IMG/VR virus record: IMGVR_UViG_3300042373_000145
Coordinates: 1 to 30,801 of that record
Origin: a virus
Reading direction: 5' to 3' (one strand)
Length of the DNA: 30,801 nucleotides
The notes beneath the pieces were generated by a model. It saw nothing but the letters and a program-made list of their open reading frames with translations, did no database searches and was not told the DNA's origin. This document shows, one piece after another, positions 21,933 to 28,327 of this stretch (the first letter of the stretch is position 1; each line of letters begins with the position of its first letter). A program made the translations under genes and the position numbers.

Positions 21933-24365
21933 TTAAAAAGGTGTTTCATTTATAGGTGTTACATTATCCCAAACATCTGCAGGTTTGGTTGGCTTAGTAT
22001 CTGACTCAATCATAAACCATCGAGATCCATTGGTATTACCTTCACTGTATTTTTTACCATAGAACTCACAGTATCTTTTAATCCATTGAGTAAATCTCTT
22101 TTGTTTGAGCCACTGTTTATAGTCTTTATTATCATCAATAAACCTATCAAATACATAATTCTTACTCAATTGATATCCTTCATTGATGCAATCAGTTTCT
22201 TTAATCCATTCAAGAAAATCTAATGAAGTATCATTTATTAGTTTTCTATTTTCTAAATTATTGTGATTAAATTCTACAAGTCCATTCTCAAGATAATATT
22301 GTAAACAGTTTATCATGAAATGGTCAAATCGAGCCCATTCCTCTGTATCCCAATCATCAAATAACATGTGATCAAAGTAATCTAATGGTGAGTTATTAGC
22401 ATTAAAATAAGAGCTCATTTCTACCTCAAATTTTCTACGTTCAAATGATCCACCAACTCCCTGAATAGTGTAATTAGTTGTGATTATAATCTTAGGTGAT
22501 TTTTGTACCGGTAACTTAATGGCATCTTGACCTTTGTACTCCAATGTAATACCCTCTGTTATCAATGAGAATAGATTTTCAAAGTTAAAGTTCTTTTTAA
22601 CGTCATCAAATACCAACAATTGAGTGTCAACTGGAACTGATTGATAAGGGAATGACTTACTAAATTCAAATGTTTTACCATCTATTGATGATACTTTTTT
22701 AATATGACTCAATGCATTCCAAAATAATGACTTTCCAGAACCTCCATTTGGATTATCTGAGATAGTCTCATCATTGAAAATTATAGCTTTATTATTTGCA
22801 GATGTCTTAAATGAGTGCATTAAATAACCAATTACTGACTTTAATGAATTGTATCTATTAGTATTTTGTCCAGAACATAACCAAATGAAAGTCCTATATT
22901 CAGACTCATGATGATCAGCATTAATAAACTCTCTATCAATAACCTGTTTTTTCCATACAAATCCATTTAATTCATCATAATCAAATACTTCATATCTATT
23001 GTTGTAAACTTTAATTGCGTTATTTTTATAATAAATCCATGAAAAATCTTTACCATCATCTTCAACAGTGAATTGAGCAGTGTCAAGCATTGATAAATAA
23101 GCAGGTGTAAATGTCCTTGTTGATGCAGCCAGTAAATCATAAACATCAAAATTAAGATTATCCATTTGCTGTTTTAGAACGTAATCTTTAATGTTGTATT
23201 CAGATACCTCATCAACAAAATTATCATCTTTTTTTATGAATGTAAATGTCTTTGAGTTAGCTATTGGATAATGCTTATAAAAAGTATTGTGTTCTAAATA
23301 AAATTTTAACCTGTGAGGGGAAATTTTCAGTTTGCCTTTATCATCAAATGACCAAAATACTTTTAAATCAATTCCAGCCTTGGCAGTGTCAATCTCTTTT
23401 TTTATATCATCCTTTTCTCTATCTGGGAACTTTTCAAATATTTCAGTGTCAGACTTGCCAATTTTGACCATGCCAATAATAGCATCCTTTGACTCTTTAT
23501 CTTCAAATTTCTGCGTTCCAAAGTTTGATTTGTTTTTATAGGCACTTGCAATTATTTTTTTAATCTCATCTTCATCAAAATCTTTCTCTTGATTAGGCAG
23601 TAAATAATTTTCACATGTCAATTGAGACACTCCAAAATCATTGAATGCAGCTGCTAATTTAAAAAATGAGTTATTTCTTTGTGATGCGTTATAATGTTTT
23701 TTAAACCATATCATCAACCTATTAGCAATCTCATCTTGATCCTGTAATGGAATGTTTGTTGCTGTGCCAAGTTTTGAAAAGTCCAATTTCTTTTCATCCT
23801 CCACAAAATCTGTAAACTCATTTGAGTCATAGTTTATATAAATCTCTGGATCATAAGACTCAAAACATAATCTTGAAATATCTTGACCACTTGTATCAAT
23901 TACATTATCTCCAAACTCATCATTTACCCACAAAAAATGTTTGTAAATAGCTTTGTATCTCTTATTGTAATCATCATTATCAATAACAACAGGTATTTTT
24001 ACCAATGCTTTTAAACCATTACCACTTGGACTTATCCAAATAGAAAAAATATAGGTGTCTTTTGATAGTTTTTCTTTAAGCAATAGTAACTCATCATAAG
24101 TTTTTATCTTATCGAAGTCAATAATTGCTAATCCTGAGCCTTGTTTTAATCCATTCTTTGCTCTCCTGGTGAAAGTTCCACAAAAAGTAACTGCAGGTAA
24201 ATCACCTTTTAATTTTTTTCTTTTTTCCTCATCCAGTTCAGCTCTAAGTAATTGAATTTTGTCTTTAACTTGACCAAATTTTATGCGTTCTAAATAAAAT
24301 AAAACATCTTTTGATCTACCAACTGGAATAACTGACTGCTTATCTTTGAAATAATCTACTTTCAT
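21933..24365 (-). CDS. Primase-helicase: BT4734-like N-terminus plus SF3 helicase (810 aa)
   Basis: Residues about 50-180 match the BT4734/VirE-N domain ('FCGTFTRRAKNGLKQGSGLAIIDFD', 'IWISPSGNGLKALVKI'), a primase-related fold seen in Bacteroidetes. Residues about 200-300 look like a primase C-terminal helical domain. The helicase part has Walker A 'NGGSGKS' (540-546), Walker B 'LLVFDDVKK' (D587, D588), motif C 'SPKIIITTN' (N631) and an arginine finger 'RRKFEVEM', as in SF3/D5-like helicases. It likely loads at the origin, unwinds and primes DNA. It overlaps the preceding 87-aa gene by 4 nt. Confidence 0.9.
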   Translation of the reverse strand: MKVDYFKDKQSVIPVGRSKDVLFYLERIKFGQVKDKIQLLRAELDEEKRKKLKGDLPAVTFCGTFTRRAKNGLKQGSGLAIIDFDKIKTYDELLLLKEKLSKDTYIFSIWISPSGNGLKALVKIPVVIDNDDYNKRYKAIYKHFLWVNDEFGDNVIDTSGQDISRLCFESYDPEIYINYDSNEFTDFVEDEKKLDFSKLGTATNIPLQDQDEIANRLMIWFKKHYNASQRNNSFFKLAAAFNDFGVSQLTCENYLLPNQEKDFDEDEIKKIIASAYKNKSNFGTQKFEDKESKDAIIGMVKIGKSDTEIFEKFPDREKDDIKKEIDTAKAGIDLKVFWSFDDKGKLKISPHRLKFYLEHNTFYKHYPIANSKTFTFIKKDDNFVDEVSEYNIKDYVLKQQMDNLNFDVYDLLAASTRTFTPAYLSMLDTAQFTVEDDGKDFSWIYYKNNAIKVYNNRYEVFDYDELNGFVWKKQVIDREFINADHHESEYRTFIWLCSGQNTNRYNSLKSVIGYLMHSFKTSANNKAIIFNDETISDNPNGGSGKSLFWNALSHIKKVSSIDGKTFEFSKSFPYQSVPVDTQLLVFDDVKKNFNFENLFSLITEGITLEYKGQDAIKLPVQKSPKIIITTNYTIQGVGGSFERRKFEVEMSSYFNANNSPLDYFDHMLFDDWDTEEWARFDHFMINCLQYYLENGLVEFNHNNLENRKLINDTSLDFLEWIKETDCINEGYQLSKNYVFDRFIDDNKDYKQWLKQKRFTQWIKRYCEFYGKKYSEGNTNGSRWFMIESDTKPTKPADVWDNVTPINETPF

Positions 24366-24625
24366 ATTTCTTTTTCAGTTATGGTTATAACAAAATGCTC
24401 AATTTGATATTCATTTAGAAAATTCCATGCACTTTCTAATAAACTCTGTTCATTTTTAGGTGGAATTTCATACCAATAAACTGATAAACAACCTTTGTGA
24501 TCATGTAATTTGAATATCTTTTTATCTAATTGGTAATTAGAATAATACTCAATCATTTTTTTAAGGAGTTGCAACCTTTCATCATTGTAATCCGTTCCCG
24601 AACCACACGTTCTTACTGTTATCAT
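24362..24625 (-). CDS. Small protein before primase (87 aa), unknown
   Basis: This is the first gene after the structured leader RNA, with the ATG at 24625 about 13 nt after the last T of the T/A-rich tail of the RNA. The protein is soluble and mixed alpha/beta ('LLKKMIEYYSNYQLDKKIF', 'CLSVYWYEIPPKNE', 'HFVITITEKEI'). It ends in a 4-nt overlap with the primase gene, so it is cotranslated with it and may be a small partner of replication initiation. No family is recognised. Confidence 0.7.
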   Translation of the reverse strand: MITVRTCGSGTDYNDERLQLLKKMIEYYSNYQLDKKIFKLHDHKGCLSVYWYEIPPKNEQSLLESAWNFLNEYQIEHFVITITEKEI

Positions 24626-24637
24626 AAGCTTTTTTTA

Positions 24638-24730
24638 AATTAAAAACCTCTTAAATCCTTTGGGGCTTCACATCCAAATTCATTAAGAGGTCTTAATAAC
24701 TTCCTTAGTTCTATAACGTGAAGCCGAACT
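24638..24730 (-). ncRNA. Kissing-loop RNA / attenuator upstream of the primase operon
   Basis: The predicted transcript starts near 24730. P1 is AGTTC/GAACT (24730-24726 with 24711-24707) around a 14-nt loop beginning GGCTTCAC. P2 is ACCTCTTAA/TTAAGAGGT (24691-24683 with 24654-24646), extendable to 12 bp with the T-run. Inside it, P3 TTTGG/CCAAA closes a 10-nt loop, ATGTGAAGCC. The last 8 bases of that loop are complementary to GGCTTCAC in the P1 loop, so the two loops can kiss. P2 is followed by TTTTTAATTT, so the RNA can act as a terminator. Pairing is seen in the sequence; the function is inferred. Confidence 0.72.
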
Positions 24731-24735
24731 GTCCA

Positions 24736-24763
24736 CAAATATAAAAATAATTTCAATACAAAA
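24736..24763 (-). promoter_or_regulatory. Candidate promoter for the structured RNA and primase operon
   Basis: The minus strand has TTTTG, a 15-nt spacer and TATATTTG (24743-24736), matching TAnnTTTG. It is 23/28 identical to the element before the portal gene. A start 5-7 nt after TATATTTG falls at about 24730, exactly at the first base of P1 of the RNA, which supports both calls. The short spacer is unusual for the phylum's housekeeping sigma factor. Confidence 0.6.
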
Positions 24764-25048: not shown

Positions 25049-25429
25049 TCAAATATGACTCTCCAAATTTAGTTCTTTATAAAGATTATTTCTCAATCTA
25101 AACTTAATTTTTTTCAACACTGGGATTGAGTAACATCCCATGATGTCATCAACCAGGTTGTAATTATGATCTAAATTTTCAAATAATAATCTCTCCTGTT
25201 CAGTGTGCTGAATGTAGATGCTGTCATTGATTGACATAAAATCTTTGTGAATCTTGATGCCATACATGATAGTTGCATGGTCTTTTTTGAATATCTTACC
25301 TATCTCCTGTAATGTTAATCCATTGTTGCGAAGTAAGTTTGATAAGTAAAATCTTTTGTAAACCAAATGCCGGTATCTATCCTTTGAGTTCAATTTATTG
25401 TCTTCAATATACTGTATTATCTCTTCCAT
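25049..25429 (-). CDS. DnaA domain IV-like DNA-binding protein (126 aa)
   Basis: Residues about 15-65 match the DnaA C-terminal DNA-binding domain: 'RYRHLVYKRFYLSNLLRNNGLTLQEIGKIFKKDHATIMYGIKIHKDF', with the DnaA signature seen as DHATIMYG at 50-57 (DHSTV in DnaA). The AAA+ domain is absent, so it cannot be an initiator by itself. It may recruit host DnaA, bind the adjacent repeats, or repress. The C-terminal half is helical and unassigned. It starts 13 nt before the end of a micropeptide gene. Confidence 0.82.
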   Translation of the reverse strand: MEEIIQYIEDNKLNSKDRYRHLVYKRFYLSNLLRNNGLTLQEIGKIFKKDHATIMYGIKIHKDFMSINDSIYIQHTEQERLLFENLDHNYNLVDDIMGCYSIPVLKKIKFRLRNNLYKELNLESHI

Positions 25430-27869: not shown

Positions 27870-27968
27870 CTATCCAATTAAACCGATGTATATAAACACA
27901 CCTGTAAATAATAATAATGCACCAGAAACGATTAAAATATCTCTTATGGCTTTTTGATCTTGGCTCAT
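27870..27968 (-). CDS. One-helix membrane micropeptide (32 aa)
   Basis: ATG at 27968 overlaps the stop of the zinc-knuckle gene as ATGA, and the TAG at 27870-27872 is followed one base later by the next ATG. The peptide has a charged start (MSQDQKAIRD) and a hydrophobic helix 'ILIVSGALLLFTGVFIYIGLI'. Size and topology resemble the micropeptide at 25417-25500. It would be missed by a 60-codon cut-off. Confidence 0.6.
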   Translation of the reverse strand: MSQDQKAIRDILIVSGALLLFTGVFIYIGLIG

Positions 27969-28327
27969 GCTAATTGATTTTTAAGATTAACTAAATGACT
28001 TTCTAATCTTGCAAGGCCACGAGCTTGTGTATTAAGTTTGTTCTTATACTTAGGCAGTAACTCATAGAACATTCCTTTACTTAGGTCTTTTAATGTGTCA
28101 GATGTCAATCTAATGCGAGTCAACATTCCATCAATCATGTACTCAACATCCTCAATTCTGCAATAAAATTTAATGATTTCCTCCTCATCCTCAATCTGGC
28201 CCTCACCATGACACTCCTCACATGTTACTGAATAGTCATAAGATGGACACTCATCCCATGAGTCATTTGCTGCAATTGTTCCACTGCCACAGCAAGTGTT
28301 ACATTCTTTGATAAATTCTTTTTTCAT
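27965..28327 (-). CDS. Zinc-knuckle protein, DnaJ-like CxxCxGxG (120 aa)
   Basis: Two CXXCXGXG motifs are present: 'CNTCCGSGTI' (residues 9-18) and 'CEECHGEGQI' (about 35-44), the zinc-binding pattern of DnaJ and related small proteins. The J-domain is absent, so it is not a co-chaperone itself. The C-terminal 70 residues are helical ('KFYCRIEDVEYMIDGMLTRIRL', 'LARLESHLVNLKNQLA'). It may bind zinc and mediate protein or DNA contact in the early phase. Confidence 0.78.
   Translation of the reverse strand: MKKEFIKECNTCCGSGTIAANDSWDECPSYDYSVTCEECHGEGQIEDEEEIIKFYCRIEDVEYMIDGMLTRIRLTSDTLKDLSKGMFYELLPKYKNKLNTQARGLARLESHLVNLKNQLA

Follow-up and report, generated by a model that had tools for sequence, protein, structure and literature searches.

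Complementary loops of about 7 nt on two hairpins occur in the ColE1 (RNAI/RNAII) and pT181 systems, the latter of which attenuates transcription. The put leader of phage HK022 is a promoter-proximal, two-hairpin leader that governs transcription elongation, and in the cobalamin riboswitch a kissing loop (L5-L13) joins an upstream hairpin to the expression-platform hairpin. Phage Gifsy-1 makes the short RNA IsrK and a read-through mRNA from one promoter, with one terminator (PMC4825925). The CI RNA of phage P4 is a trans-acting antisense RNA that arises by processing of a longer transcript. The timing of genes in Bacteroidota phages, which are abundant in the gut and the sea, is little understood. 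Here, we report a short element that, on comparative sequence evidence, is a member of a real, undescribed and phage-specific family of leader RNAs of Bacteroidota phages, a family that may bear on this timing.

The 93-nt element (24638-24730, minus strand) lies in the window, by which we mean the whole 30,801-nt stretch of virus DNA analyzed, and combines a promoter with two hairpins, P1 and the terminator P2/P3, whose 8-nt loops, K and K', are fully complementary (Table 1). An initial annotation had listed P1, P2, P3, the loop blocks and the U-run, and a check of the sequence found all of them in place on the minus strand. It had also put a promoter start at the first base of P1; placing the G of the -7 element at -5, as in the Bacteroidota consensus (TTTG/TANNTTTG, G at -5 [PMC6847099]), predicts a start at about 24731, one base away. 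Most relatives of the element are likewise preceded by a Bacteroidota -7 element. The annotated terminator is supported by the P2/P3 stem and the U-tract that follows it, both of which lie between the promoter and the first gene, as in an attenuator. The internal loop has a conserved (A)ATGA...(G/T)GATT (alignments A6/A7) and is possibly a tandem G.A.

Table 1. Coordinates of the leader element and its downstream genes in the window, and sites of a second leader type in other phages
Feature	Coordinates	Strand	Basis or remark
TATATTTG, Bacteroidota -7 promoter element	24736..24743	-	perfect TANNTTTG, G at -5
TTTG, possible -33 element	24759..24762	-	sequence; 15 nt from -7 element, somewhat short
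P1 5' arm AGTTC	24726..24730	-	sequence
Kissing loop K GGCTTCAC (P1 loop)	24718..24725	-	sequence, relatives, covariation
P1 3' arm GAACT	24707..24711	-	sequence
A-rich linker AAGGAAGTTATTAAG; family consensus AAAGAAATT	24692..24706	-	conserved across family
P2 5' arm ACCTCTTAA (terminator stem)	24683..24691	-	sequence, folding
Internal-loop strand TGAA, partner GGAT 24655-24658	24679..24682	-	alignments A6/A7
P3 5' arm TTTGG	24674..24678	-	sequence
Kissing loop K' GTGAAGCC (P3 loop)	24664..24671	-	sequence, relatives, covariation
P3 3' arm CCAAA	24659..24663	-	sequence
P2 3' arm TTAAGAGGT	24646..24654	-	sequence
Terminator U-tract TTTTTAATTT (U-run TTTTT AATTT from 24646)	24637..24646	-	sequence; T-tract throughout family
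87-aa ORF	24362..24625	-	ATG 16 nt past U-run; without Pfam/PHROG match; 71% identity in L004
810-aa primase/helicase	21933..24365	-	domain matches: BT4734-like_N, PriCT_1, DUF5906; phrog_28855
Second leader sites	L014:3918, L015:395, L029:3864, L031:844, L032:1354, L037:1466, L041:1931, L046:3866	+	conserved pseudoknot

Nested folding of the window element was only moderately better than that of shuffles (z = -2.1), and RNAfold without the kissing pair favored another fold for P1 (P1 pair probability, ~0.27), so that a single sequence could not settle the structure and comparative data were needed. Covariation was tested on six registered sequences (500 shuffles, with slid structures as the control). 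In the kissing helix, 6 of 8 pairs were changed on both sides and 97.9% of cells were paired, a covariation score reached by 0 of 500 shuffles; the whole structure was 98.6% paired, versus 29 to 43% for slid structures. The kissing-loop RNA proposed in the annotation is thereby strongly supported, with covarying, complementary apical loops on two closed hairpins. Across the family the kissing helix spans 6 to 11 bp (estimated at -6 to -20 kcal/mol), and the contact should be strong, because estimated energies average -10 kcal/mol and K has a G+C content of 61% in genomes of 35% G+C.

Relatives were sought with a detector requiring P1, a terminator hairpin, complementary loops and an upstream TAnnTTTG-like element, which gave 25 unique matches in fetched phage DNA, a few of them in coding sequence and likely false, versus 2 in shuffled DNA (3.27 Mb, both strands). 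Strict matches inside coding sequence (e.g., L102-L104) were judged false and set aside; among the other matches were elements that precede distant primases and have entirely different loops. A pattern blind to complementarity (TAT[AC]TTTGC-N-AAGAAATT-N-GTTTTTT), chosen to avoid circularity, was run against IMG/VR and returned 39 unique matches, 32 with matching loops. When the terminator was judged without the loops, 26 matches had a stem of at least 10 bp, all of them with loops matching over at least 6 nt, and the 7 matches without matching loops all had weak stems. Self-matching was found in 23 of 30 non-redundant pattern matches (random re-pairing: mean, 3.3; maximum, 10) and in all 43 elements of a diverse set with 41 different loop pairs (permutation: mean, 5.0; maximum, 15), many of which were detector found and so partly selected for complementarity, a bias from which the pattern- and model-based tests are free.

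The covariance model was restricted to the linker and hairpin 2, without the window, P1 or K, because MAFFT alignment of the whole element misregistered P1 and the loops, and P1 and the kissing pair were kept as an independent test. It recovered the window (E value, 1.5e-5) and found Cellulophaga phage phi10:1 (E value, 4.5e-5), in which the upstream P1 loop then pairs (GTACGAC/GTCGTAC). The whole-family multiple alignment is weak outside the window-like subgroup. Loop sequences vary freely between viruses, yet each pair matches within the elements recognized.

The primase of two relatives, L004 and L005, is 95% identical to that of the window, and their P2 and P3 are unchanged. Their P1 is GGTTC/GAACT, a single A-to-G change giving a G-U pair, and their loops (GCTCTCAC/GTGAGAGC) carry three compensatory pairs of eight, the compensatory changes being confined to the kissing pair. 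Between the window and L004, 6 of 10 changes fall in the 16 K/K' bases (Fisher P value, 0.0014). General diversifying selection on K was considered and dropped, as the three changes in L004 form one contiguous block and K is unchanged in other close pairs; the same loops are kept within L144/L176/L182, L162/L171/L197 and L158/L183. All relatives with a recognized element, when checked for loss of complementarity, had remained complementary. A DNA similarity search in annotated phages returned no relatives, because the sequence diverges while the fold stays.

In some relatives, the whole leader is replaced by a different, pseudoknotted and terminator-like one in the same slot before the primase (L014-L016, L029-L032, L037, L041 and L046). 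This second leader is laid out as GGGGTTGTCGGAGGCATCCACTTAAAAGG-loop-CCTTTCCCC-T-run (variant reading, GGGG..AAAGG-loop-CCTTTCCCC plus T-run), and its loop is complementary to a segment 3' of the T-run, close to the ATG. The pairing covers 7 to 9 nt and covaries, with compensation between phages (TTACTCGTT/AACGAGTAA and TACACTGTT/AACAGTGTA); some phages have two copies, and no Rfam family matched at gathering scores. Two unrelated leaders that both tie up a terminator loop favor a regulated terminator as the function of this slot.

Single copies of the window-type element were detected in each of eight cultured phages, namely, Flavobacterium phages 11b, FCL-2 and elemoF, Cellulophaga phages phi10:1 and phi18:3, Polaribacter phage P12002S, Croceibacter phage P2559S and Bacteroides phage B40-8. 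The same architecture with unrelated loops recurs across IMG/VR phage contigs, most of which have one element; a few have two or three, and their loops then differ (L055, L042 and L214). U-tracts are weak in L062, B40-8 and phi10:1. Samples of 395 and 295 host-class genomes contained zero true members by strict pattern and model, which would miss divergent members. In keeping with the view of the annotation that no such RNA had been described, a covariance-model scan matched the element to none of the Rfam 15 families at gathering score, and the literature searched, outside subscription papers and preprints, held no description of the layout. No tRNA or other known RNA was found in the window, where a SAM-II match (E value, 1.2; inside an ORF) was rejected as chance.

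The primase operon named in the annotation is borne out in the window by a BT4734-like_N/PriCT_1 primase downstream, and the family also heads other genes, including those for a primosomal protein, a Rha regulator, helicase, HNH endonuclease and small ORFs. Some elements are followed by a small ORF and then a DnaD-like helicase loader, and some sit before HNH or lipoprotein genes. NUMOD4/HNH-type homing endonuclease genes (identified by eye from N-termini) lie directly behind the leader at L121:12462, L042:8679, L018:3676 and the L192 element; in L018 this gene stands between leader and primase, and the P1/K sequence (ATCACGACCA) appears a second time immediately upstream of the ATG, 3' of the terminator (L018:3676-3780). 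A gene with a DnaA C-terminal helix-turn-helix (HTH) lies upstream of the leader in the window (25049-25429, minus strand), and phi18:3 shares this order of DnaA-like gene, leader and replication genes. From the stem to the first start codon (ATG) of an ORF no shorter than 40 aa, the distance is 7 to 33 nt in 19 of the 20 elements and 9 to 52 nt in all 8 cultured phages; for random positions, an ATG of this kind lies within 50 nt in only 23% of cases. An ATG so near the terminator leaves too little room for another promoter, so the downstream genes would need read-through. The annotated start of P2559S gp48 lies inside the leader (NC_018276 33955; L280:1456), and the ATG just beyond the terminator is a more plausible start.

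We read the element as a conditional terminator (attenuator) with kissing loops in a phage leader, with a probability of roughly 0.55. A host-type promoter would direct transcription from the base of P1 onward, and the RNA would fold into the 5' hairpin P1, the A-rich linker and the intrinsic terminator hairpin P2/P3, whose apical loop would kiss the fully complementary P1 loop. The downstream operon, ~7 to 50 nt from the U-tract, would be transcribed solely by read-through. The kissing complex and conserved linker would form the regulated state, such that kissing formed or disrupted during transcription would set the fraction of polymerases entering the gene cluster (often replication genes), and a protein or other factor may bind the linker. 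The anatomy, conservation, covariation, promoter motif and position are observed; genuine but partial termination, its modulation by kissing and the signal at work are inferred. The element is probably a switch for the reading of the genes behind it; a partial terminator could also simply fix the ratio of short RNA to mRNA.

The annotation had further suggested that GTGAAGCC could be captured by GGCTTCAC before the terminator is complete, so that loop pairing could decide on entry into the operon. Read-through control gains indirect support from the ORF spacing, but capture is unsupported as stated. In many elements, each partner caps a closed hairpin as an apical loop of ~7 nt, as in L044 (GTATT-GGTCCAG-AATAC and TCATAA-CTGGACC-TTATGA; loops of exactly 7 nt), and kissing and a finished terminator hairpin can therefore coexist. 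Non-systematic inspection of the elements revealed no mutually exclusive antiterminator helix, and a switch between kissing and terminator is not evident from the sequence, as both are compatible; capture is one possible model among others. Since the loops pair while both stems are closed, we lean slightly toward kissing that acts in cis and favors the folded, terminating state. Self-sensing seems rather unlikely: terminated leaders, each with both kissing halves, would accumulate and pair with leaders of the same phage that are still being transcribed, thereby adjusting read-through. If so, the phage would gauge its own transcript or genome dosage before committing to the downstream genes, and the loop sequence would be a self/non-self code.

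Other explanations have to be weighed against a regulated terminator. A chance arrangement or ordinary terminator, for which the AT-rich genome and the nonzero detector background (2 shuffle matches) might speak, has a negligible probability, being contradicted by covariation and ruled out by shuffles, permutation, slid structures and the independent covariance model. The element might be a trans-acting small RNA (sRNA), as the annotation also considered, which is unlikely though credible: the terminated ~90-nt RNA would be the product and, by homotypic kissing with copies of its own leader in other transcripts, would signal immunity or gene dosage to the replication genes. Its own promoter and terminator, the presence of both halves of the loop pair on each RNA, the usual single element per genome, the 41 different loop pairs among 43 representatives, the differing loops of multicopy genomes (L055, L042 and L214) and the precedent of P4 CI RNA, which pairs with complementary leader sequences (PMC4825925), are all consistent with this. 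However, close relatives usually keep the same loops and so give no general sign of diversifying selection, neither the loop 8-mer nor its complement occurs again in the window, and tight ORF spacing points to cis action. Nor was an integrase or repressor seen among the window genes tested, in a record that may be incomplete.

It is quite improbable that the RNA acts on RNA polymerase in the manner of HK022 PUT, or recruits a phage antitermination protein via the linker, so that downstream terminators are ignored, with the terminator shape forming part of the acting RNA. The element is promoter-proximal, begins at +1, heads operons of unrelated genes, and conserves both its single-stranded linker and its internal loop, but a canonical terminator complete with U-tract is an unpromising basis for an antiterminator RNA, and a candidate protein is lacking beyond one weak Q-like match. 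That match (E value, 0.0036) is to a small protein (27965-28327, minus strand) with a weak DnaJ zinc-domain match (E value, 4e-5), conceivably an antitermination factor. A structural or stability leader, in which kissing would shield the 5' end of the mRNA or set its translation and the U-run would just happen to lie in an AU-rich initiation region, is very improbable. A 5' hairpin beginning at +1 and AU-rich sequence ahead of the ATG would suit Bacteroidota initiation without a Shine-Dalgarno sequence (PMC6847099), and the U-tracts of a few members are weak, but most members have a textbook stem and at least 5 to 6 U, located before rather than in the initiation region. We consider an origin-linked RNA (a transcript that primes replication, not a gene leader) hardly credible. 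There is usually one element per genome, often beside replication genes and in the window downstream of the DnaA-HTH gene, but genomes with two or three copies exist, HNH or lipoprotein genes follow some elements, and a terminator would shorten the primer.

As a putative attenuator with kissing loops, the element represents a phage-borne, undescribed RNA family in which the functional core, the kissing pair, varies yet stays matched; several of its cultured carriers have laboratory hosts, and its many natural loop pairs are potential orthogonal parts for RNA circuits. HK022 put prevents downstream termination and is itself no terminator, a comparison that for sequence consists of the Rfam scan only. 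Unlike the cobalamin riboswitch, the present element spans only ~90 nt and has neither an aptamer domain nor an Rfam match. The partners in ColE1 and pT181 are separate sense and antisense RNAs, whereas here both loops are on one RNA, one of them capping a terminator. As in Gifsy-1 IsrK, a short RNA and a read-through mRNA would share promoter and terminator; IsrK acts on translation of the downstream ORF, and an architecture of P1 kissing a terminator is not described there (PMC4825925). With the P4 immunity leader (CI RNA, seqA/seqC), the window element shares complementary segments within one replication-operon leader, along with premature termination (PMC4825925), and it differs in belonging to Bacteroidota phages, without an Rfam sequence match, and in consisting of two closed hairpins with matching loops, one of which is the terminator.
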